A DNA stretch of 64,000 nucleotides. Origin: Pseudomonas rhodesiae. GTDB lineage: Bacteria; Pseudomonadota; Gammaproteobacteria; Pseudomonadales; Pseudomonadaceae. A program made the translations under genes and the position numbers. The stretch is taken from positions 434,001 to 498,000 of the forward strand of contig NZ_VFEU01000003.1 of the NCBI RefSeq assembly GCF_007858255.1, given 5' to 3'. The notes beneath the pieces are model-generated. The model had not been told where the DNA came from and did not search any database. It saw only the letters and a program-made list of their open reading frames with translations. The stretch's first letter is position 1. Every line of letters starts with the position of its first letter. Below, piece by piece: positions 2,940 to 63,059 of this stretch.

Positions 2940-3128
2940 ACAGTGTTGTGGGTCAGCCTTTGAGATTTATGTAGATACCGACGACCATCGGGGGCAAGCC
3001 CCCTCCCACATTGCACAGCATCGGTATCTATATTGCTTCGTTGAAAACATGCAGTTCTTTTGTGGGTCAGTCTGTGAGGTTTGTGTAGATACCGTGAGCC
3101 ATCGGGGGCAAGCCCCCTCCCACATTGG
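2940..3128. repeat. Two tandem REPIN-type units
   Basis: Two related units lie in direct orientation. Each has a GTGGGTCAG segment, then a GTAGATACC segment, then an ATCGGGGGCAAGCCCCCTCCCACATTG palindrome (ends near 3016 and 3126). They fill the gap between gcd and the convergent globin gene. No gene is seen in the stretch. Confidence 0.85.
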
Positions 3129-3147: not shown

Positions 3148-3567
3148 TCAGTGCTCGATCACGTCGCCGCGCATGCGTGCCAGGCGGGCGAGCAGGCGGT
3201 TTTGTGTGGGCACTGGGATCCCTTCGCTGTCCATCGCTTTGATCAGATCCTCCACCAGCGCGTTGAAATCACTGCGGCTGACGTTCTGGCCTTTGTGGCT
3301 CTCGGCCATGCTGTCGCCGGTGTAGGTGCATGGCCCGCCGGCTTCGACGCAGAACTGTTCGATCAGTTTGTTGCGCAGGCGCTGGATGTCGATACGCCGG
3401 AAGCGCTCGACGATGCGTTCGTCGCGGGCGATGTTGAGCAGCATGCCTTCGACGATGCGGGTGATGCCGGGCATGGCGCCGAGGTCGCGGTAGAGGCTGT
3501 CGTCCTTGGGCGGTTGCTGGGCGCAGGCGCTCAGCAGCACCAGCAGTAGCACGGGCAATACGCGCAT
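3148..3567 (-). CDS. Group 1 truncated haemoglobin, predicted lipoprotein
   Basis: Proteins of this family bind haem and O2 or NO. This one has a lipoprotein signal (LLLVLLSAC, lipobox Cys about residue 15), so it is probably membrane-anchored on the periplasmic side. The mature part of about 125 residues matches the short 2/2 globin fold: SLYRDLGAMPGITRIVEGML helix, an FRR turn, KLIEQFCVEAGGP, a TYTG segment and a His (AESHKGQN) at the place of the proximal haem ligand. Its ATG overlaps the stop of the DUF3034 gene as TGATG, which implies translational coupling. It is the last gene of a four-gene operon with a cupredoxin-like protein and a c-di-GMP protein. The function is inferred from the family. 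Confidence 0.85.
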   Translation of the reverse strand: MRVLPVLLLVLLSACAQQPPKDDSLYRDLGAMPGITRIVEGMLLNIARDERIVERFRRIDIQRLRNKLIEQFCVEAGGPCTYTGDSMAESHKGQNVSRSDFNALVEDLIKAMDSEGIPVPTQNRLLARLARMRGDVIEH

Positions 3568-4424
3568 CAGAAACTCCCCTGGACGGACAGGTAAGTGCCG
3601 TTCTGGTTATCCAACGTGGCGATTTCCCCCAGCCGTGCGTACGCCAGCACAAACGACACATGCTTGCTGGGGAAGTAAGCGAGGAACACGTCCGCCCAGT
3701 CGCTTTCTCCGGCGAAGGACAGGTTGTCGGGTTTCTCGCGGTACTCCACACCCAGCGCCCAGCGCGGGTTGAACAGCAGCGCCACCGAGCCTTCCTTGAG
3801 CAGGCTGCGGCGGTCGCGGCGGTCGCCGCCAAAACCGAGCAGGCCGGTTTCATTGGCGCGGCTGTAGCGCAGGCCGCCGTTGACCAGCACGTTGTAGCCA
3901 AAGGCCGCGCCCATGAACAGGCGGCTGGCGGCCAGGTAGCCTTCCACGTCGCTGTCACGCTTGGCGCCGACCAGGCGCGGAATATCGAACGTGTTCTGAT
4001 GCTTGTATTGCAGGCCCAGCGAAACCTGGGGCAAGCGGTCGTAGATCACATCGCCGAACAGCCGCACTTTGACCCCCAGCACATCCTGGCCGAGGTGGTC
4101 GTCGGGCAGGTTCAGCTTGTGTACCAAGGTGCCCAGGTCAAAACGTTGCCGAGCGAAAGAGACTTCCACGCGGTTGTCGTAGGCCAGCGCCAACCCGGCG
4201 ACATCGAGCCGGTAGTCCGGCAGGTCGACCGTGGTGGCAAACGCCGTGGCGCCCCATTCGTGTTGCTCGCCGTAACCGGTGAGCACCGCCCACGGTGTGA
4301 TGCCGCCGCCCGCCGCGCCTTCCAGGCTGCTGGCGCCGCCAGTGGCAATCAGGCGACCGTTATCGGCCAGGGCGGAGGGCAGGCTCAGGCTGGCCATGCA
4401 ACCGATCAGTAGAGAAAGACGCAC
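3567..4424 (-). CDS. DUF3034 family protein, predicted outer-membrane protein
   Basis: A 285-aa protein with a cleavable signal (LSLLIGCMASLSLPSALA) and a mature part built from alternating amphipathic strands (for example YRLDVAGLALAYDNRVEVSF, VRLFGDVIYDRLPQVSLGLQ) that ends in an aromatic residue (VQGSF). Both features fit an outer-membrane beta-barrel. I recognise the DUF3034 family; no biochemical role is known to me. I chose the GTG at 4424 over the longer ATG at 4460 because GAGGG lies seven bases upstream and the signal peptide then starts at residue 1. It begins 10 bases after the stop of the GGDEF/EAL gene and shares TGATG with the globin gene. Transport or sensing at the cell surface is conjecture. 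Confidence 0.75.
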   Translation of the reverse strand: MRLSLLIGCMASLSLPSALADNGRLIATGGASSLEGAAGGGITPWAVLTGYGEQHEWGATAFATTVDLPDYRLDVAGLALAYDNRVEVSFARQRFDLGTLVHKLNLPDDHLGQDVLGVKVRLFGDVIYDRLPQVSLGLQYKHQNTFDIPRLVGAKRDSDVEGYLAASRLFMGAAFGYNVLVNGGLRYSRANETGLLGFGGDRRDRRSLLKEGSVALLFNPRWALGVEYREKPDNLSFAGESDWADVFLAYFPSKHVSFVLAYARLGEIATLDNQNGTYLSVQGSF

Positions 4425-4434
4425 GTCATAGCCC

Positions 4435-6786
4435 TCAATGCACCTGCGAAGTTTGCGCACTGAGAGGCAAGGCCACCCAGGCTTCGAAAGCGTCGGCGCT
4501 CAAGGGCCGACTGATCAGGTAACCCTGCGCCGTATCGCATTGCCAGCGCTCCAGCAGGCGCAGGCTGTGGGCGTACTCGACCCCCTCGGCGACCACCTTG
4601 AGGCCAAGGTTATGGCTCATCTCGATGGTGGAACGCACGATCACTGCGTCTTCGCTGGTTTCGTCCAGGTTGCGCACAAACGACTGGTCGATCTTCAACT
4701 CTTGCACCGGCAGGCGCTTGAGGTGGGCCAACGACGAGTACCCGGTGCCAAAGTCATCCACCGACAGGCTGATGCCGCACTCGCGCAGCAGGTGCAGCAC
4801 TTTCAAGGCCTTTTCCGGTTCGCGCATCACCGCGCTTTCGGTGATCTCGAACACCAGCTGTTCGGCCGGCAGCCCGTAGCGCCGCAACAGCGCCGAAACG
4901 CGGTGGGCCAGCTCATCGCCAAGCAAATCGTCGGCCGAGATGTTCAGCGACAGTTGCAGGTACAGGCCTCGGCGGTTCCATTCGCACAACTGGCGGATGC
5001 CCTCTTCGATCACCCACTGGGTCAGCAACTGGATGCTGCCCGAACGCTCGGCCAGAGGGATGAATTCCGCCGGCGAAACCATGCCGAACTGCGGATGCTG
5101 CCAGCGCAACAGGGCTTCAGCCTGACGCACATGGCCCAGACGAATATCCAGTTTGGGCTGGTAGTGCAGCAGCAACTGGCCTTGGCCGGGGGCGTGGCGC
5201 AGGTCGCGGATCAGGGTGATCTGGCGACGATGAGCAAGGTCGCGGCCCGGCTCGTACACCTGCAAGCGACCGGGCATTTGCGCGGCGTCCTTCATGGCAA
5301 TCGCTGCGCGTTCCAGCAGGCTTTGCGCAGAATCGCCATCGTCCGGGTACACCGCGATGCCCAAGCGGCAGTCGAGCGCCAGGTCGTGGCCGGCAATACG
5401 CTGGGGGCGCAATAGCAATTGCTGCAGCTTGTCGGCCAGGCCCACCGCCTCGTCACGACCGGCGCCGTCAAGCAGCAGCAGGAACTCGTCGGCGATCAGA
5501 TGCGCCAGGGTGTCCCGTGGGCGCAGCACGGCCTGCAGGCGGCGGCTGACATTGAGCAACAACTCATCCACGGCGTCCGGCCCGGCGGTTTCGCTGGCGG
5601 CGCGCAGGTTGTCGATGCCCAGGTAAATCAGCGCCATCGGCCGCTGGGTGGCAATCGCGCTGCCCAGGCGCTCCATGGCCAGCGCACGGTTGGGCAAACC
5701 GGTGAGGCGATCATGCAGCGCGTTGTGGGCCAGTTGCTGTTCACGCTCGGCGATGCCGCTTTGCATCGCGTTGAGCGCCACGGCCAGGCGGCCCAGTTCG
5801 TCGCTGCGGGTCAGGATGACCGGGGTCTGGTAGTCGCCATGGCCAATGCGTTCGGCGGCCTGGGCCAAGGCTTGCACCGGACGCGACACGCCCCGCGCCA
5901 GCAGCAATGCGCCGACCAGCGACGCCGCCAACGCAACCAGTGCGATGGCCAGAATCTTTTCATCCAATGGCACAAAGGCTTGCATTGCCGAATCCAGCGG
6001 GCTTTGCAGCAAGGCCAGCACCTGGCTGTCGGCGTCGCTGGCCAACACCAGCGATTGGCTGAGAAAACGGTGTGCCAGATGCTCGGTGGTGGACACGCCC
6101 TCATGGGTGGACGCCCCCAGCATCAGACTGACGATACTGTCGCGCAGCACCTGGGGTTGGGTGCTGACCAGCGTCCCGGGCTGCTGGCGGTCGATGGCCA
6201 GGAACGACACTTCCAGATTGCTCAACGAACGCAGTTCATCGGCGAACGCCGTGTCCATGCTGAAGCCCATCACCACCCGCGCAATCGGCAACGGCGCCAA
6301 CACCGGCGCTTCCACCAGCAGGTGCGGCGTGCCTTGCAGCGGCACGATCAACAACGCGGCCTGGCGCTGGCGGCGCATTTCGCGCAATGCCTGGTCGTAA
6401 CGAAAGCTCGAACCCTCGGCGACTTCGTCGACGGTGCTGGCCAGGACTTTGCCGTCCATGCCCAGCAAGATCATGTCGCTGGCATTGATGCGTTTGCCAT
6501 GGTTGAGCAGCACCGAGCGCATCGTCGCCGAATCGCCACTGGCCACGGCATCGCGAAAGCCGAAGTCGGCCGCCAGCAGTTGCACGCCATCGGCCAGGCG
6601 CCGGCCGCGCACATCCAGCAAACGCTCGAACACCCGCGTGCCCACCTGCAACTGGGCCAGCGCCTGGCCATGGACAGCCTGGCGGGTGGCCATCTTGACG
6701 CTGAAATACAGCGCGCCGATCACCACCAGCGACAGCAGGATCAGGACCGTGGCGACCCGCGCCTGGTAACTACTGCGCAGTTTCAC
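4435..6786 (-). CDS. Membrane GGDEF/EAL protein (probable c-di-GMP phosphodiesterase)
   Basis: The layout is a transmembrane helix (about 8-30), a periplasmic sensor region (about 35-275, Cache-like), a second helix, a HAMP segment (RGVSRPVQALAQ), a GGDEF domain (about 360-510) and an EAL domain (about 525-770). The diguanylate cyclase signature is degenerate (LIADEF instead of GGDEF), whereas EALLRW, NISADDL, FEITES, DDFGTGYSS and KIDQSFV are all present. The protein therefore most likely hydrolyses c-di-GMP. I chose the GTG at 6786 over 6810 because it aligns residue for residue with the well-supported start of the paralogue at 9978. The gene overlaps the stop of the upstream cupredoxin-like gene by 17 bases. 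The periplasmic domain may sense something bound by its operon partners; this is inference. Confidence 0.88.
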   Translation of the reverse strand: MKLRSSYQARVATVLILLSLVVIGALYFSVKMATRQAVHGQALAQLQVGTRVFERLLDVRGRRLADGVQLLAADFGFRDAVASGDSATMRSVLLNHGKRINASDMILLGMDGKVLASTVDEVAEGSSFRYDQALREMRRQRQAALLIVPLQGTPHLLVEAPVLAPLPIARVVMGFSMDTAFADELRSLSNLEVSFLAIDRQQPGTLVSTQPQVLRDSIVSLMLGASTHEGVSTTEHLAHRFLSQSLVLASDADSQVLALLQSPLDSAMQAFVPLDEKILAIALVALAASLVGALLLARGVSRPVQALAQAAERIGHGDYQTPVILTRSDELGRLAVALNAMQSGIAEREQQLAHNALHDRLTGLPNRALAMERLGSAIATQRPMALIYLGIDNLRAASETAGPDAVDELLLNVSRRLQAVLRPRDTLAHLIADEFLLLLDGAGRDEAVGLADKLQQLLLRPQRIAGHDLALDCRLGIAVYPDDGDSAQSLLERAAIAMKDAAQMPGRLQVYEPGRDLAHRRQITLIRDLRHAPGQGQLLLHYQPKLDIRLGHVRQAEALLRWQHPQFGMVSPAEFIPLAERSGSIQLLTQWVIEEGIRQLCEWNRRGLYLQLSLNISADDLLGDELAHRVSALLRRYGLPAEQLVFEITESAVMREPEKALKVLHLLRECGISLSVDDFGTGYSSLAHLKRLPVQELKIDQSFVRNLDETSEDAVIVRSTIEMSHNLGLKVVAEGVEYAHSLRLLERWQCDTAQGYLISRPLSADAFEAWVALPLSAQTSQVH

Positions 6787-7447
6787 GGGCAGCTCGATTG
6801 AAGGCGTCACCGAAGGCGGTCGGCGCCGGTGGCAGGTCTGCCGAGGCGGGTTGCAGGGTGAGCTGCACGCGGTGGCTCAGGCCGGCGGCGGGAATATGCA
6901 AGGTGCCGCCGTCCAGCGGCTGCATATCCGCCAGTTGCGGGTGCCACAGGGTGGCGTGGTAATCCCCCGGCGCCAATGGTTCCAGGCGCACACGGCCTTG
7001 GGCATCGCTGACACCGAAGTGAGGATCGTCGGTGACATAGATATAGCCGAGCATCCAGTCATGGATATTGCAGCCCAGCACCACCACGCCCGGTTTGTCG
7101 AACAGCAGTGGCGCGGTCGGCGTGCCTTCGTACAGGCGCAGTTCGAAACGCTTGGCGGCCGAAAATGAATACACCTGATGGCGAATATTGTCGCTATTGG
7201 GGAAGCGCACCTGGGTGCCGGTATGCACCGCCAGCACATGCGGGGCGAAGCGCTGGCCACGTTGGTCCATCTCCGCCTTGGGCGCGACGGCCGCCACAGC
7301 GGCCGGGCCTTGCAAAGTCACAACCGCATCGCTGACCGGGCTGCCATCGGCCTGCTGCACCAACACCTCAAGGGTGGCCGCCGAGACGGGCGCTGCCGCC
7401 GCCAGCAACAGCATCATGCGAGATAACAGGTTTACACATCGGGCCAT
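6770..7447 (-). CDS. Periplasmic cupredoxin-like protein (methylamine utilization MauL-like)
   Basis: A secreted protein of about 225 residues: signal peptide (LLSRMMLLLAAAAPVSA), a short carboxypeptidase-regulatory-like strand region (ADGSPVSDAVVTLQ), then a plastocyanin-type core with SDNIRHQVYSFS and GCNIHDWMLGY. These supply the His, Cys, His and Met expected for a type 1 copper site. Annotated relatives are usually called methylamine utilization protein, but no other mau genes are present, so a role in methylamine oxidation is doubtful. It is the first gene of the operon running to 3148. The start is uncertain: the ATG at 7447 puts the signal peptide at the N-terminus, but no clear ribosome binding site precedes it; 7501 is an alternative. 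Confidence 0.75.
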   Translation of the reverse strand: MARCVNLLSRMMLLLAAAAPVSAATLEVLVQQADGSPVSDAVVTLQGPAAVAAVAPKAEMDQRGQRFAPHVLAVHTGTQVRFPNSDNIRHQVYSFSAAKRFELRLYEGTPTAPLLFDKPGVVVLGCNIHDWMLGYIYVTDDPHFGVSDAQGRVRLEPLAPGDYHATLWHPQLADMQPLDGGTLHIPAAGLSHRVQLTLQPASADLPPAPTAFGDAFNRAARETAQ

Positions 7448-7641
7448 GGGAGATCCGGTAGAAAGCGGCCAGCCTTGGCGGAAAAGAACGGTTACGGCCA
7501 TGATGCCGCAATCAAGGCAAAATGCCACTATTGAACACAGGAGGACGCTAAACCGTTGGTCGGTAAAAAACTGTGCAAACGGTCAGGCTCCGTAGAAGTT
7601 ATCGACCATACCTAAAAAAGCTGTAGTCACCTGCAAGGTGT

Positions 7642-9978
7642 CTAGACCGCCGCGCGTTCGCGCCGCATCCACATCTCAAAAGCCATGGCGTTGAGCGGCC
7701 GGCTGATCAGGTAGCCCTGGGCGGTGTCGCAATTCCACTGCTTGAGCAGCTTCAGGCTGGGTTCGAACTCCACCCCTTCGGCCACCACTTTGAGCCCCAG
7801 GTTATGGCTCATCTCGATAGTCGAACGCACGATCACGCCGTCGCCGCCCTCGTTGTCGAGGTTGCGCACGAAGGATTGGTCGATCTTCAGCTCCTGCACC
7901 GGCAGGCGTTGCAGTTGGGCGAGGGAGGAATAACCGGTGCCAAAGTCATCCACCGACAGGCTGATACCGCAGCCGCGCAGTTGCTCCAACACGCTAAGGG
8001 CCTGGCGAGGGTTGTGCATGATGGCGCTCTCGGTGATTTCGAACAGCAATTGCTCGGCGTGCACACCGTGCTGGGCAAGCAAAGTGGTCACGCGGATCGC
8101 CAGGTCGTCGTCGGCCAGGTCGTCCACCGAGATATTCACCGACAACTGGATCAACAGGCCGCGCCGCGCCCATTCGGCGATCTGGCGGATGGCTTCTTCG
8201 ATCACCCAGTGGGTCAGGCTGGCCATGCTGCCGGTGCGCTCGGCCAGGGGAATGAACTCGGCCGGCGACACCAACCCCAGACTGGGGTGCTGCCAGCGCA
8301 GCAGGGCTTCGGCCTGGCGCACCTGGCCGTGCTTGAGGTCGAGTTTGGGCTGGTAACACAGGTGCAACGCGCCTTCGGTGGCGGCACGGCGCAAGTCGCG
8401 AATCAGGGTGATCTGGCGCTGATGGGCGAGGTCGCGGTCCTGCTGGTAGATCTGCAGATAGCCCGGCAGCATCGCCGCATCGTGGCGGGCGATGGCGGCG
8501 CGGCTGATCAATTCTTCCACGTGCTGGCCGTCATTGGGGTAGACCGCAATGCCGATGCTCACTTCGTGGCGCAGCTCGTCGTTGCCAATGCGTTGAGGCT
8601 CGGTGAGCAGCGCATAGAGGCGGTCGGCGCGGGCCACGGCGCGGTCGATGCCGATATTTTCCAGCAACAGCAGAAATTCGCTGCCGGACACCCGCGCCGC
8701 GGTGTCGCTCGCCAACAGGCTCATGGACAGGCACCGGCTGGCTTCGCGCAACATGTCTTCAACCCCCTCCGGGCCGAAGCCTTCGTTGATTGCGCGGTAG
8801 TTTTCGATGCCCAGGTACAGCAGCGCCACCGGCCGCCGCGCACTGATCGCACTGCCCAAGCGCTCCATGGCCAGGGCGCGATTGGGCAGCCCGGTAAGGG
8901 GGTCGTGCAAAGCGTTATGGGCCAGTTGCCGTTCACGCATGGCGATGCCGCTTTGCATGGCATTGAAGGCGCGGGCCAGCAGGCCGAACTCATCGTGGCC
9001 ACGTACCCGCACCGGGGTGCGGTAGTCACCGGCGCCGATCCGCCCGGCGGCGTCCACCAAGGCATTGAGCGGCCGCGACACGCGTCGCGCCAGAAACAAC
9101 GCGCCAGCCAACGACACCACCAACACCGCCAGGGCAATCCCGAGGAACTGCCGGTCCAGCGGCGCAAAGGATTCCAGGGCATGATCCAGCGGGCTTTGCA
9201 GCAACACCCGCACGTCATCGCCCTCACCGGTATTGGCCAGCGTCAGCACCTGGCTGAGCACACGCTCGCCGTAGAACCGATGGATATGCGCCTCGGGGTC
9301 CGGACGGGCCCCACGCAACAGGTTGATCACCGTGGCCTGATAAGCGTCGGGCTGGGTGCTGAATAATTGGCCGACATGCCCGTTGCGCATGCTGAGGAAC
9401 GACACCTCCAGGTTGCTCATGGAGCGCAGTTCATTGGCGAACAACGTGTCCATGGGAAAGCCCATGACCACGCGAGCGATGGGCGTTGTGTCGACGACTT
9501 CGTCCTGCACCAGCAAGTAGGGGCGCTGGTCCATGGCCACGATCAACATCTGCAAGCCACTGCGCCGGGCCCGACGCAGTGCCTCGGCATAAGGGAAGAC
9601 CTGGCCCCGCGTAAACCCCGGCAAGGTGCTGACCATCACCGTGCCGTCCAGCCCCAGCACCAGCACTTCGCTGGAACGGATGCCGCTGCCGTGACGCTCC
9701 AGCACATCCAGGATCGACGCCGAGTTGCCCTCGGCCACCGCGCTTACGAATGGGCCGTCGGCGGTCAGCCAGTCGAGGCCGTATTGCAGGCGCCGGCCCC
9801 GCAGGTCCAAGAGGCGTTCGAACACCTGACTGCCGGTTTTCAGTTGGGCGCGGGCCTGGTTCTCCACGGCGCGGCTGGTGGCGGCCTGCACCGCAAAGTA
9901 GGTCGCGGCGACCACCACCAACAGCAGCAACGCCAATACGCCGGCAATGCGGGTCTGGAACGTATGGCGCCACGTCAT
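7642..9978 (-). CDS. Membrane GGDEF/EAL protein, paralogue of the gene at 4435-6786
   Basis: The 778-aa protein has the same layout as its neighbour: TM helix, periplasmic sensor region, second TM helix near residue 295, HAMP, GGDEF and EAL. Long stretches are nearly identical to the other copy (DDFGTGYSSLA, LPVQELKIDQSFVRNLD, DTAQGYLISRPL). The GGDEF signature is again degenerate (VSGSEF) while EALLRW and the other catalytic-loop motifs are intact, so phosphodiesterase activity is more likely than cyclase activity. The ATG at 9978 has AGAGGG eight bases upstream and is preferred over the ATG at 10080. A gap of 194 bases separates its stop from the cupredoxin operon, so it may be transcribed separately or read through into it. 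Confidence 0.88.
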   Translation of the reverse strand: MTWRHTFQTRIAGVLALLLLVVVAATYFAVQAATSRAVENQARAQLKTGSQVFERLLDLRGRRLQYGLDWLTADGPFVSAVAEGNSASILDVLERHGSGIRSSEVLVLGLDGTVMVSTLPGFTRGQVFPYAEALRRARRSGLQMLIVAMDQRPYLLVQDEVVDTTPIARVVMGFPMDTLFANELRSMSNLEVSFLSMRNGHVGQLFSTQPDAYQATVINLLRGARPDPEAHIHRFYGERVLSQVLTLANTGEGDDVRVLLQSPLDHALESFAPLDRQFLGIALAVLVVSLAGALFLARRVSRPLNALVDAAGRIGAGDYRTPVRVRGHDEFGLLARAFNAMQSGIAMRERQLAHNALHDPLTGLPNRALAMERLGSAISARRPVALLYLGIENYRAINEGFGPEGVEDMLREASRCLSMSLLASDTAARVSGSEFLLLLENIGIDRAVARADRLYALLTEPQRIGNDELRHEVSIGIAVYPNDGQHVEELISRAAIARHDAAMLPGYLQIYQQDRDLAHQRQITLIRDLRRAATEGALHLCYQPKLDLKHGQVRQAEALLRWQHPSLGLVSPAEFIPLAERTGSMASLTHWVIEEAIRQIAEWARRGLLIQLSVNISVDDLADDDLAIRVTTLLAQHGVHAEQLLFEITESAIMHNPRQALSVLEQLRGCGISLSVDDFGTGYSSLAQLQRLPVQELKIDQSFVRNLDNEGGDGVIVRSTIEMSHNLGLKVVAEGVEFEPSLKLLKQWNCDTAQGYLISRPLNAMAFEMWMRRERAAV

Positions 9979-10188: not shown

Positions 10189-11367
10189 TCAGGCCGGCCC
10201 TCGCGCGCGCATGAAATCGCCCCAGCGGCGCACCAGGTAGTTGTGCTCGTCCATCACCGCGTTCCACACCGCGATGTGGCCCATACGCTGTTCATAGGAG
10301 CCGCCGTCGCGCACCTCGCCCCGGTCGATCAGCGGCAGGCCATCGCTGCCCGGCAGTTCTTCACGGGCGGGCTTGCCGGCGTACCAGTAATCCCACTCGG
10401 CGGCGCTCAAATGGTCGCGCGTGCGGGCCGGGTTGCCGATGTAATACCCCTGACGCGCCATCACCGCACCGGGCCAGCCGGACAGCCACCAGTTGAGGTA
10501 CGCGTAGGCGGCATCCAGCACCGGGCCCTGGGCATGGCGCGATAACGACAAACCGCCGAACCAGGCGCGATAGCCTTCGCGCGGCACCGCCAGGCGGTAC
10601 TTCACACCGGCGCGATGCAGGCGCATCAAGGTTGGAGACCACAGGCTCTGGATATCGATACTGGGGCTGAGCATCAGTTGCGCGGCTTCTTCGTCGTCTG
10701 ACCAGAACGCCGCGAAGTGCCCCTCCTTCTGCTTGCGCACCAGGATGTCGGCGAGCACATCGATGTCCTCGATGCTCATATTGCCGATGTCGCGGAAACT
10801 GGCGAGCCCGGCGCCCTGCACCGCCAGCGCGGCATCCAGTGCGCCAATGGCGGCGTCGCTTTGCAGTGCGGTGCGCGCGCGCCACGCCGGGTCCAGCAGC
10901 CAGCCCCAACTTTCGTTGCCCCGGCAAAAGCCTGCGGGCAGACGCTCGGGGCGGTAGGCAAAACTGTCGGCGTTGTGGGTCAGGGGCAGCATGCTGATAC
11001 GTTCGGTCACGGTGCTGCCGAGGCTGCCGTCGTGCTGCACGAACAGCCGCTCGCTGGGCACGCTGCCACTGCCCAGGCGGTCGTTGGGGCTCAGGCGCCC
11101 GCGCTTGGGCAAGTCGTTGATCTCGTGCCATAGCGCGATGCGGCGCGTATCGATAGGCTGGATCGCCCGCGCCGGCCAGACGAAGTCGACGTTGTGAAAC
11201 CATTGATCGTAAAGGTCGTAACTGTCGGGCTGCATCACCGCAATACGCTGGGCCTGCTCGACATCGTGCACCTGATAGACCAGGCGAATGCCAAGTTCCT
11301 GCTCGGCCCGCACGCGCAAACATTCGAGCAATGTCACCGAGGTGCCGAGGACGCGCAGTGTGATCAT
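10189..11367 (-). CDS. Extracellular solute-binding-like protein without signal peptide
   Basis: This 392-aa protein has the look of an ABC-type family 1 (PotD/spermidine-like) binding protein. It opens with a beta strand, ITLRVLGTSVTLLE, and has SYDLYDQWFHNVDFVW, ISMLPLTHNADSFAY, ASFRDIGNMSIEDIDVLADI and a ligand-lobe region, GYYIGNPARTRDHLSAAEWDYW. No signal peptide or lipobox precedes the first strand and no ABC permease or ATPase gene is nearby. It may work in the cytoplasm, or the annotated start may miss an exported form. I chose the ATG at 11367 because it makes an ATGA overlap with the CobW gene; the longer frame upstream overlaps that gene by about 140 bases. It is last in the minus-strand cluster headed by the amidase. 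Confidence 0.7.
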   Translation of the reverse strand: MITLRVLGTSVTLLECLRVRAEQELGIRLVYQVHDVEQAQRIAVMQPDSYDLYDQWFHNVDFVWPARAIQPIDTRRIALWHEINDLPKRGRLSPNDRLGSGSVPSERLFVQHDGSLGSTVTERISMLPLTHNADSFAYRPERLPAGFCRGNESWGWLLDPAWRARTALQSDAAIGALDAALAVQGAGLASFRDIGNMSIEDIDVLADILVRKQKEGHFAAFWSDDEEAAQLMLSPSIDIQSLWSPTLMRLHRAGVKYRLAVPREGYRAWFGGLSLSRHAQGPVLDAAYAYLNWWLSGWPGAVMARQGYYIGNPARTRDHLSAAEWDYWYAGKPAREELPGSDGLPLIDRGEVRDGGSYEQRMGHIAVWNAVMDEHNYLVRRWGDFMRARGPA

Positions 11368-12338
11368 CGGGCCAACCGCCGGGAAAACACCTCGAAAGAA
11401 CGACGCAACAGCGCAGGGTCGAGGCCGCGCAGGATAAATACCAAGCGCGATTGCCGGTCGCTGCCCGGCCACGCAGGCAGATGCACCGGCGCGTGCAGGC
11501 AATGCTGCACGCCATGAATGACGATGGGGGCGTTACTGGCGTTCACGTTGAGCAGTCCCTTGACCCGGAGGATTCGTTCGCCGTGGCATCTTAGCAGCAT
11601 CGACAACCACACCCCGAACCCTACCCAGTCCAGCGGCTGCTCGAAGGTCAGGCAGCACACCTGCGCCGCGCCATGGGAGGCGGTGGTGGATCGATGCAGT
11701 TGCCAGCGTTGCACTTCATCGGCGGGCTCGGCGCTGCGCAGGCCTTCGCCGAGCAGCAATTGGTCGCCGCTGTGAATGGCGTGGGTGTCGAGGATCGGCG
11801 TACCGGCGTTGAGCGCCTGCAAGTGCGCACGCAGCGGGGCGCAATCACCGGCCAGGTCGGTTTTGCTCAGCAGCAGGCGGTCGGCGGCGGCCACTTGGGC
11901 CAGCCATTCCGGGTGCAGGCGTTCTTGCAGGGCGGCGTGGCTGGCGTCCACCAAGGTGATCACCAGGCCGATATGGAAACGCCCGCGCAGTTGCACGTCG
12001 TTGTTGAGTGTGGCGAGGATCGGCGCCGGGTCGGCCAGGCCGGTGGTTTCCAGGATCACGCGCTTGAACGCCGGAATTTCACCGCGTTCGCGGCGCTGCA
12101 ACAGGGCCAGCAGCGCGTCTTTCAACTCGCCGCGAATCGAACAACACACACAGCCGCTGGGCAGCAACACAGTGTCCGGGGCCACTTCTTCCACCAGCAG
12201 ATGGTCGATGCCCACATCGCCGAATTCGTTAATCAGTAACGCGGTGTCGCCCAGGCTTTCACCCTCCAACAGGCGCTTTAGCAAGGTGGTTTTGCCGCTG
12301 CCGAGGAAGCCGGTGATGACGTTCAGGGCCATGCTCAT
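11364..12338 (-). CDS. CobW/G3E-family GTPase (putative metallochaperone)
   Basis: G3E GTPases use GTP hydrolysis to insert or deliver metal to client enzymes. This 324-aa protein has the P-loop GFLGSGKTTLLK right at the N-terminus, NEFGDVGIDHLL, the metal-binding GCVCC motif (the CxCC signature), LLSKTDLAG as the base-recognition region, and the CobW C-terminal domain with VKGLLNV and a final HLPAWPGSDRQSRLVFILRGLD segment. It overlaps the downstream solute-binding-like gene by ATGA and overlaps the upstream CxxC gene stop. The nearby CE4 hydrolase is a metal enzyme and is a plausible client. That pairing is inferred from position only. Confidence 0.88.
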   Translation of the reverse strand: MSMALNVITGFLGSGKTTLLKRLLEGESLGDTALLINEFGDVGIDHLLVEEVAPDTVLLPSGCVCCSIRGELKDALLALLQRRERGEIPAFKRVILETTGLADPAPILATLNNDVQLRGRFHIGLVITLVDASHAALQERLHPEWLAQVAAADRLLLSKTDLAGDCAPLRAHLQALNAGTPILDTHAIHSGDQLLLGEGLRSAEPADEVQRWQLHRSTTASHGAAQVCCLTFEQPLDWVGFGVWLSMLLRCHGERILRVKGLLNVNASNAPIVIHGVQHCLHAPVHLPAWPGSDRQSRLVFILRGLDPALLRRSFEVFSRRLAR

Positions 12339-61469: not shown

Positions 61470-63059
61470 CTAAACCGGCTGCCACCTATGCGGCAGCAAC
61501 TCCTCAATTTCACTCGCCCGCTGCGTCGGCAGACGCGTGAGGACGTCCTTCAAGTAGGCATACGGATCATGCCCATTCAGTCGCGCCGACTGGATGAGGC
61601 TCATGATGGCTGCCGCCCGTTTTCCACTTCGCAACGAGCCTGCAAAGAGCCAGTTCTTGCGCCCAAGAGCCCATGGCCGGATCTGGTTCTCACACCAATT
61701 GTTGTCTATGGGCACAGCCCCGTTATCAAGATAACGCGACAACGCCGTCCAGCGTTTGAGGCTGTAATCGAGCGCCTTGCTGATGGCCGAGCCGTTGGGC
61801 ACAAGGTCGCGCTGGGCGATCATCCAGGTGTGTAACGTAGCCATCACCGGAGCTGCTTTTTCTTGCCGTATTCGGCGGCGTAAGTCCGGCTCCAGGTCAC
61901 GGACTTCATTTTCGATTTCGTACAACAACTGGATATAGCGCAAGCCTTGTTCAGCGATATGGCTCTTGTTGGTCGCGTGCAGCTCGAAGAACTTTCTCCG
62001 GGCATGGGCCATGCAGCCGATCTCGGTTACACCGAGTTCGAAGCTGGCCTTGTAGCCACCGAAATCATCACAGACCAGTTGGCCTTTCCAGTCTTGCAGG
62101 AAGTTTCGGGCATGCTCTCCGGCGCGGCTGAGGCTGAAGTCGTAGACCACCGCCGCCGTTTCGCAGAACTGGCTGGTGGCATAGGCCCAGACATATGAGC
62201 GATGGGTTTTATTCAGACCCGGCATGAGCATTTGTACCGGCGTTTCATCGACATGAACGACCGGGTGTGCGAGTACAACATCGCGCAGTGCATCAACCAA
62301 TGGCTGCAATTGCACACCGCAGGCCCCCACCCATTGAGCCAGCGTCGAGCGCGGGATCGCCAAGCCGGCACGGCCAAAAATCGATTCCTGGCGGTAAAGG
62401 GGCAAATGATCGGCAAACTTGGCGATCATGACATGAGCCAACAACCCAGCGGCCGGGATGCCTTTGTCGATGATCTGTGCCGGTACCGGTGCCTGGATCA
62501 GTGTTTCGCAGTCATCGCAGACCCACTTGCCACGCACATGGCGCTCGACGGTAAACACGCCAGGCGTGTAGTCCAGTTTTTCGCTGACGTCTTCGCCGAT
62601 ACGTTTAAGTGCGCAGCCGCATGGGCAGTGAGTGTTGTCCGGTTCGTGATGGATCAGCGTGCGCGGAAACTCCGCTGGTAATGCAGTGCGCTTGGGCTTC
62701 TGTTTGGTCTCGGTCGGTGCCGGGGCGAGTTGTAACGTTTGAAGCTCAGCCTCGATCGCCGCGATATCGGTGTCGATCAAGTCATCGAGCAAGCTGGCCT
62801 GCTCCGGGTGCATCTGCTCGCTGCGCTTGGCGTACTTGAACCGCTTGAGCTGCGCGATCTCGTGGGTCAGCTTCTCGATGAGGGTTTTGTCGTGATGGAT
62901 TTTCTTGCCCATCGTCTCGACCGTTTTGCCGAGGGTATCGACTGTCTTGCCCCGCGTATCCACCTCTTGATCGAGGGTGCCGACACGCTGCATTAACTGC
63001 GCGGCCAGTGCGCGCAGTTGTTCGGGTGTCAGGTGGTCAAGATCGGGGAGCGAAGTCAT
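61470..63059 (-). CDS. tnpC: IS66-family transposase TnpC
   Basis: The 529-aa DDE transposase has an N-terminal coiled coil (LDQEVDTRGKTVDTLGKTVE), a zinc-finger-like segment (CPCGCALKRIGEDVSEKLDY; KWVCDDCETL) and the catalytic domain with Asp in VHVDETPVQML, Asp in VCDDFGGYKASF and Glu in WCENQIRPWALGRKNWLF. It is full length, so it could be active. Confidence 0.95.
   Translation of the reverse strand: MTSLPDLDHLTPEQLRALAAQLMQRVGTLDQEVDTRGKTVDTLGKTVETMGKKIHHDKTLIEKLTHEIAQLKRFKYAKRSEQMHPEQASLLDDLIDTDIAAIEAELQTLQLAPAPTETKQKPKRTALPAEFPRTLIHHEPDNTHCPCGCALKRIGEDVSEKLDYTPGVFTVERHVRGKWVCDDCETLIQAPVPAQIIDKGIPAAGLLAHVMIAKFADHLPLYRQESIFGRAGLAIPRSTLAQWVGACGVQLQPLVDALRDVVLAHPVVHVDETPVQMLMPGLNKTHRSYVWAYATSQFCETAAVVYDFSLSRAGEHARNFLQDWKGQLVCDDFGGYKASFELGVTEIGCMAHARRKFFELHATNKSHIAEQGLRYIQLLYEIENEVRDLEPDLRRRIRQEKAAPVMATLHTWMIAQRDLVPNGSAISKALDYSLKRWTALSRYLDNGAVPIDNNWCENQIRPWALGRKNWLFAGSLRSGKRAAAIMSLIQSARLNGHDPYAYLKDVLTRLPTQRASEIEELLPHRWQPV

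Follow-up and report, generated by a model that had tools for sequence, protein, structure and literature searches.

We analysed a 64,000-nucleotide window of the Pseudomonas rhodesiae genome (6.33 Mb), which sits within a single contig (NZ_VFEU01000003.1; G000:C33 in our set). It carries four minus-strand genes for a MauL-like secreted protein, a membrane receptor with GGDEF and EAL domains, a DUF3034 protein and a truncated-globin lipoprotein (Table 1). The name MauL follows what we take to be the customary annotation of the first protein. A first-pass annotation of the window, made from the sequence alone, had described the four genes as a coupled operon, and this arrangement was confirmed: the MauL and receptor genes overlap by 17 bases (6770-6786), the receptor and DUF3034 genes are separated by 10 bases (4425-4434), and the DUF3034 and globin genes have one base in common, within TGATG. 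The receptor and DUF3034 genes have GTG starts. Among collinear gene pairs of related loci, the distance from the upstream stop to an in-frame start was at most 30 bases in 100 of 102 MauL-EAL, 91 of 95 EAL-DUF3034 and 113 of 115 DUF3034-globin pairs, a count that took the nearest in-frame start and is therefore biased toward short gaps. Judged by the spacing in these related sequences, the tight packing of the genes is more than chance. The operon promoter likely lies in the intergenic stretch 5' of MauL.

Table 1. Operon genes and upstream features, with the evidence for each assignment.
Feature	Position	Strand	Basis
MauL-like secreted protein	6770..7447	-	ligand conservation, profile matches, AF2 model, fold matches
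Inner-membrane receptor (dCache_3, HAMP, degenerate GGDEF, intact EAL)	4435..6786	-	Pfam domains, catalytic residues, alignment
DUF3034 protein, predicted 12-strand outer-membrane barrel, C-terminal Phe	3567..4424	-	PF11231, AF2, fold matches
Group 1 truncated-globin lipoprotein	3148..3567	-	homology and conservation
Intergenic stretch 5' of MauL	7448..7641	-	inferred promoter place
Receptor paralogue (HAMP, GGDEF, EAL)	7642..9978	-	59.8% identity, 769 residues

The MauL-like protein had no Pfam match above the curated cut-off and no NCBIfam match. A sequence profile of the protein matched the type 1 copper domains of solved proteins (best E = 6.3e-5), and its cupredoxin domain (residues ~55-140) contains the ligands H90, C126, H129 and M132, the His, Cys, His, Met set of type 1 copper proteins. 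The AlphaFold2 (AF2) model (predicted local distance difference test score, pLDDT, 87) adopted a cupredoxin fold, with the type 1 domain of NirK as its best match (6hbe; Z 11.8, 1.9 Å, 90 residues) and plastocyanins, amicyanins and a purple cupredoxin among the further matches. A second set of matches, to the transthyretin-like domains of carboxypeptidase D (Z 11.4, 1.8 Å, 79 residues), spanned residues 24..199 of the model. These two sets of matches suggest that MauL is a cupredoxin inserted in a transthyretin-like sandwich (~24-199). H90 was kept in 105 of 106 MauL copies (one gap) and C126, H129 and M132 in all 106, so the copper ligands assumed by the first-pass annotation are conserved in relatives, and copper binding at a type 1 site is predicted. 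Methylamine metabolism was considered as the role of MauL. The methylamine dehydrogenase families PF06433 and PF02975 were not found in the P. rhodesiae genome, nor in 14 control genomes, which makes the power of this search doubtful.

The receptor matched dCache_3 (E = 3.1e-11), HAMP (7.7e-14), GGDEF (1.3e-25) and EAL (5.6e-74) in Pfam. The EAL residues N615, E650, D677, D678, K698 and E734 were present in all 107 receptor copies and E557 in 106 (one gap); these copies include two loci (L107 and L146) in which the EAL gene lies apart, ~3 kb off on the opposite strand. With its active-site residues intact, the EAL domain is predicted to be a phosphodiesterase that destroys cyclic di-GMP (c-di-GMP). 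The GGDEF motif reads IADEF where the active site of diguanylate cyclases has GG[DE]EF, and among relatives the first two glycines were found in 29 and 49 of the 107 copies. Since this half is degenerate, activity is likely confined to the phosphodiesterase. In the dCache region, D74, G76, F77, A80, T88, S91, L93 and R99 are present in all 27 alignment rows.

The DUF3034 protein matched PF11231 over all 255 positions (E = 4.2e-113; 377.5 bits against a cut-off of 25). Its AF2 model was of moderate confidence (pLDDT 80.8), with a poorly modelled N-terminal stretch and 12 strands. The top fold matches were FapF (Z 19.5, 2.9 Å, 217 residues) and a COG4313 channel (Z 18.4, 3.3 Å, 221 residues), and KdgM was also matched (Z 18.0, 2.1 Å, 170 residues). 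The sequence profile of DUF3034 found no barrel at E ≤ 1 among Protein Data Bank (PDB) sequences and FapF was not among its matches; those to Ika8/Ika4 span just 40 residues. The model predicts a 12-strand outer-membrane barrel, in line with the place that the first-pass annotation gave to this protein.

The fourth protein matched Bac_globin (PF01152; E = 2.4e-11) at 44.3 bits, above the curated cut-off of 21. It has a lipobox Cys15, a Phe56 and a proximal His91, which we take to be positions CD1 and F8, and a Cys73/Cys80 pair. His91 and Phe56 were each present in all 115 globin copies, so the heme ligands assumed at first pass are likewise conserved in relatives, and the lipobox Cys was present in 99. 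Each cysteine of the pair occurred in 114 copies, the exception (L097) lacking both. Heme binding and a Cys73-Cys80 disulfide are predicted from these patterns. In wild-type mycobacterial HbN, Tyr B10 and Gln E11 form the O2 site. Neither residue was found in the operon globins, in which position 43, presumably B10, was Leu (94), Val (10), Ile (8), Met (2) or Asn (1), and position 68, presumably E11, was Leu (108) or Phe (7). An apolar B10 in 114 of 115 copies and Leu or Phe at E11 in all of them weaken the earlier suggestion of O2 binding. The Cys pair is also present in five other globins (L175, L176, L179, L180 and L181) and absent in a further five (L177, L178, L182, L183 and L184). The five with the pair look exported by eye, which fits a periplasmic disulfide. 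Two of these (L175, ~6249-6695; L176, ~6558-7154) are lipoprotein globins from genomes without DUF3034, and their neighbours appear unrelated. Tandem truncated-globin genes that match the operon globin profile at ~1e-15 recur in many of the small genomes of family f39, from another class of the phylum (e.g. G029:C4:64743-65603).

We then surveyed 398 genomes of the phylum, covering 212 genera. DUF3034 (PF11231) was found in 39 genomes from 27 genera; within the genus Pseudomonas it was present in 47 of 149 genomes, and the P. rhodesiae genome has one copy. The globin profile matched 102 of the 398 genomes at E ≤ 1e-8, with a break in the scores between 41 genomes that reach at least 138 bits and the following match at 94.5 bits. 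A close globin homologue was present in all 39 DUF3034 genomes and in 2 of the 359 others. The MauL profile matched 72 genomes at E ≤ 1e-6 and 52 at E ≤ 1e-30; at the stricter line it was found in 38 of the 39 DUF3034 genomes (the weakest, G019, at 1.7e-35) and in 14 of the 359 others, with one genome (G052, 3.6e-30) just outside. Fisher tests gave 4.6e-52 for the globin and 3.4e-40 for MauL, values that are descriptive only because the genomes are related and the score lines were drawn afterwards. The genes thus occur together beyond a single lineage, as the first-pass reading requires.

The genes are also linked locally. In 58 short DUF3034 loci with flanks of ~1.5 kb, the globin adjoined DUF3034 in every case and 55 of the loci had an EAL match. 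Of the 116 longer loci that we also read, 80 were the best-ranked of 576 confirmed, drawn mostly from Pseudomonas and Xanthomonas, and 36 came from further genomes; 115 of the 116 contained the globin, 106 MauL and 107 the EAL gene. Three of the ten without MauL end at a contig edge (L099, L107 and L115). The one lacking the globin (L174, G078:C3:72191-73313) is a decayed second DUF3034-globin pair with a stop codon in both genes, and an intact pair lies on C1 of that genome. The usual order was MauL-EAL-DUF3034-globin. Other orders were DUF3034-globin-MauL-EAL (L154), MauL-DUF3034-globin (L146) and, in other classes of the phylum (L166-L171), MauL-EAL divergent from DUF3034-globin. In five genomes (G261, G213, G225, G246 and G389) the MauL-EAL pair lies at a separate site, and in G126 MauL lies at a different site from EAL-DUF3034-globin. 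By our reading of the loci, a dCache/EAL-type receptor adjoins MauL or DUF3034 in 36 of the 39 DUF3034 genomes. The gene set divides into two constant pairs, MauL with the receptor and DUF3034 with the globin.

To follow MauL beyond the operon, we examined 58 MauL loci in the sampled genomes (L139-L213) with a receptor profile covering dCache and HAMP, built from alignment A5. A receptor match lay within 1.5 kb of MauL at 44 of the 58, on the same strand every time. The outputs of these 44 receptors were EAL/GGDEF in 39, nucleotide cyclases in two, histidine kinases in two and a Ser/Thr kinase in one. The last (L191, 3029-5725) combines a dCache_3/HAMP sensor with a Ser/Thr protein kinase and directly adjoins the MauL-like gene, the receptors of L201 and L202 end in an adenylate/guanylate cyclase, and those of L209 and L210 end in a PAS-histidine kinase-receiver arrangement. 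Pfam dCache_3 matched the receptors of L191, L201 and L202; HAMP was matched in these three and in L186 and L209, and not in L210. Since the outputs differ, it is the sensing half of the receptor that constantly accompanies MauL.

The barrels also vary. Among the 29 MauL loci without DUF3034, 13 carried a barrel-like protein of ~410 amino acids (aa) and three one of ~300 aa. For both families, the evidence of a barrel consists of weak Pfam matches that fall short of the cut-off (Porin_4 in 2 of 4 for the 410-aa family, OMP_b-brl in 1 of 2 for the 300-aa family), and the 410-aa profile had no match among PDB sequences. In a rapid tree built from 55 MauL rows, with long branches that meet and weak support for 18 of its 52 inner branches, the barrel label changed 11 times (minimum 3; mean of shuffled labels 23.4; none of 200 shuffles that low). 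The labels are clustered on the tree, yet with 11 changes barrel partners seem to have been exchanged on more than one occasion among MauL loci. The constancy of the cupredoxin and the sensing half beside a variable output and barrel favours MauL as an input of the receptor over a role in globin service or c-di-GMP turnover.

Together, these results point to a trans-envelope receptor module in which the MauL copper protein acts as the periplasmic input, a reading to which we give just short of an even chance. Secreted MauL, with its predicted type 1 copper site, would be the partner of the dCache_3 domain, and a change in its copper loading or redox state would pass through dCache_3 and HAMP to the EAL phosphodiesterase and so alter c-di-GMP levels; the degenerate GGDEF half probably has a regulatory role. 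The DUF3034 barrel would serve as an outer-membrane port or anchor, with the globin lipoprotein beneath it at the outer membrane, where a Cys73-Cys80 disulfide and an apolar heme pocket would suit nitric oxide (NO), carbon monoxide or a redox change over tight O2 binding. We infer the physical contacts, the direction of the response and the stimulus, for which copper, the periplasmic redox state and NO are candidates. The first-pass annotation had proposed an envelope redox or gas sensing module reporting to c-di-GMP; the envelope module tied to a phosphodiesterase is supported, and O2 as its gas has lost ground. More tentatively, and with a chance we would place somewhat further below even, a general, so far undescribed class may exist in which a nested cupredoxin is the copper- or redox-loaded input for dCache-type HAMP receptors with exchangeable outputs and barrels, the DUF3034 form having a heme lipoprotein as a further sensor.

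Several observations weigh against the receptor-input reading. Gene neighbourhood cannot separate direct contact from co-regulation. Fourteen of the 58 MauL loci had no adjoining receptor and no barrel of any of the three kinds was seen at 13 of the 29 without DUF3034, so MauL does not require either partner next to it. Three of the 39 DUF3034 genomes (G019, G078 and G142) had no dCache/EAL receptor adjoining MauL or DUF3034, one of them (G078) had no MauL match at all, and two genomes (G328 and G154) keep the globin without DUF3034. Pfam dCache_3 was unmatched in the adjoining receptors of L186, L209 and L210, and the degenerate GGDEF is not universal among relatives. Ten regulator patterns searched in the 380 bases 5' of the MauL domain at 106 loci gave no usable site. 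The number of loci matched, against the shuffled mean, was 1 against 0.8 for FNR, 9 against 11.1 for NorR, 12 against 5.65 for NsrR, 7 against 17.0 for CueR, 28 against 8.9 for RpoN, 65 against 31.1 for CopR, 6 against 8.65 for FleQ, 100 against 86.8 for ArgR, 0 against 0.3 for Fur and 9 against 9.15 for TTGA-N6-TCAA. Nothing was drawn from these counts, in which both strands of the observed sequences were compared with one strand of single-base shuffles, coding sequence was included and many loci are close relatives.

We weighed three other explanations of the gene set. The operon could be an enzyme module in which the globin removes NO or peroxide, the cupredoxin re-reduces the heme and DUF3034 lets the substrate in, with the EAL protein doing no more than adjusting lifestyle. 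The operon globin is homologous to HbN, which has an NO dioxygenase role, type 1 copper proteins are electron carriers, and the globin accompanies DUF3034 in every DUF3034 genome of the sample. However, B10 and E11 are apolar, and at 18 of the 29 loci without DUF3034 MauL lies beside a HAMP receptor with no globin found at the locus, which indicates that globin service is not the general role of MauL. We consider this explanation unlikely. Next in probability, and also unlikely, is copper handling, in which the barrel and MauL take up or bind envelope copper, the receptor reports copper status and the globin is ancillary. This would fit the conserved type 1 ligands, the recurrence of three kinds of barrel-like partner beside MauL and the resemblance of the DUF3034 model to PcoB (7pge; Z 12.8, 3.7 Å, 179 residues), although FapF and sugar-acid porins are closer matches. 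Closed type 1 sites, however, usually serve electron transfer rather than copper storage or transport, and the invariant globin would be left unexplained. No copper exporter or regulator was noticed in the loci that we read, among which no systematic scan for them was made.

The least probable of the three is that MauL with the receptor and DUF3034 with the globin are separate two-gene units, merely co-inherited or co-regulated. Each pair is found without the other at some loci, and pairs or members lie at different sites in the six genomes named above. Against this, genome-level coupling holds in 38 of 39 genomes despite the split loci, and without DUF3034 MauL adjoins another barrel-like gene at 16 of 29 loci, as if a barrel were wanted. 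Chance neighbourhood was rejected because the set persists over 27 genera and through rearrangement.

The surroundings of the operon were also examined. The receptor paralogue adjoins the operon upstream as a duplicate and is outside the conserved core; an EAL gene lies 5' of MauL on the same strand at 12 of 116 loci (L059-L068, L159 and L172). Between the paralogue and MauL, at ~7498-7532, an imperfect inverted repeat around TGGCA...GCATCA, alike by eye in several Pseudomonas loci, is a possible regulator site. Two G-rich palindromic repeat copies (TGTGGGAGGGGGCTTGCCCCCGATGG), which we take to be a Pseudomonas repetitive extragenic palindromic (REP) element, were spotted by eye 3' of the globin (~2985-3125). 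A membrane-type pyrroloquinoline quinone (PQQ) dehydrogenase (448-2865) adjoins the operon on the opposite strand and was rejected as a core partner, with a relative nearby at just 19 of 116 loci. Further features are a CobW-type GTPase and a solute-binding-protein-like gene (the latter just under the Pfam cut-off) 5' of the paralogue (10189-12338) and an IS66 family transposase (61470-63059). The closest DUF3034 protein among the relatives listed is 97% identical, in Pseudomonas lurida. The three proteins compared with PHROGs had no match there.

The spread of the gene set through many Proteobacteria, with conserved metal-binding residues, makes an undescribed control of c-di-GMP by the cell envelope probable. 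We found no description of such a module in the open literature, and one may exist elsewhere since subscription literature was mostly outside the search. In the portions of open papers available to us, mentions of DUF3034 were incidental, and a MauL-type protein and an EAL domain were mentioned together in one row of a Leptospira expression table; nothing in the open literature searched brought together a globin, a cupredoxin and an EAL domain. Truncated hemoglobins, lipoproteins and c-di-GMP were mentioned together in a work on Mycobacterium avium, and dCache_3 and copper in one on PAS and Cache domains of P. aeruginosa. If the receptor-input reading holds, roughly a tenth of the species sampled in the phylum (39/398), plant-associated Pseudomonas and Xanthomonas among them, set c-di-GMP through a copper protein and a heme lipoprotein of the envelope. 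Biofilm decisions would then be tied to copper, redox state or NO in the periplasm, and DUF3034, the MauL-like family and a group of exported truncated globins would gain a role.

Each part of the operon resembles a known protein. MauL shares the cupredoxin fold, the His, Cys, His, Met set and the C-x2-H-x2-M spacing with amicyanin, plastocyanin, pseudoazurin and the type 1 domain of NirK. In contrast to these, its cupredoxin domain appears to sit inside a transthyretin-like domain and its gene partner is a receptor rather than a dehydrogenase or nitrite reductase. The globin is homologous to HbN (1idr) and the group 1 truncated hemoglobins over ~114 residues, with the same proximal His and CD1 Phe, and differs from HbN in being a predicted lipoprotein with a conserved Cys pair and an apolar B10 and E11. 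The DUF3034 model shares a 12-strand barrel over almost the whole protein with FapF, the COG4313 channel and KdgM, whereas identity to them is ~10-13% and the profile gives no sequence match to them. LapD and DibA have the HAMP-GGDEF-EAL layout of the receptor, but their NCBIfam models score far under the curated cut-offs (DibA, the best match, NF045675, 373.6 against 980 bits; LapD, NF045673, 154.1 against 1020 bits), and the receptor has a different sensor and an intact EAL active site. As a whole, the operon is most readily compared with YfiBNR/TpbB of Pseudomonas, in which an outer-membrane lipoprotein, a periplasmic protein and an inner-membrane HAMP c-di-GMP enzyme form an envelope-to-cytoplasm relay. 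The operon likewise combines a lipoprotein, a periplasmic protein and a HAMP c-di-GMP enzyme. The YfiBNR/TpbB enzyme is a diguanylate cyclase with OmpA-like and YfiR-like partners, whereas the operon has a phosphodiesterase, a cupredoxin, a barrel and a globin. By this analogy, the operon may work as a periplasm-to-c-di-GMP relay built from parts unlike those of YfiBNR.

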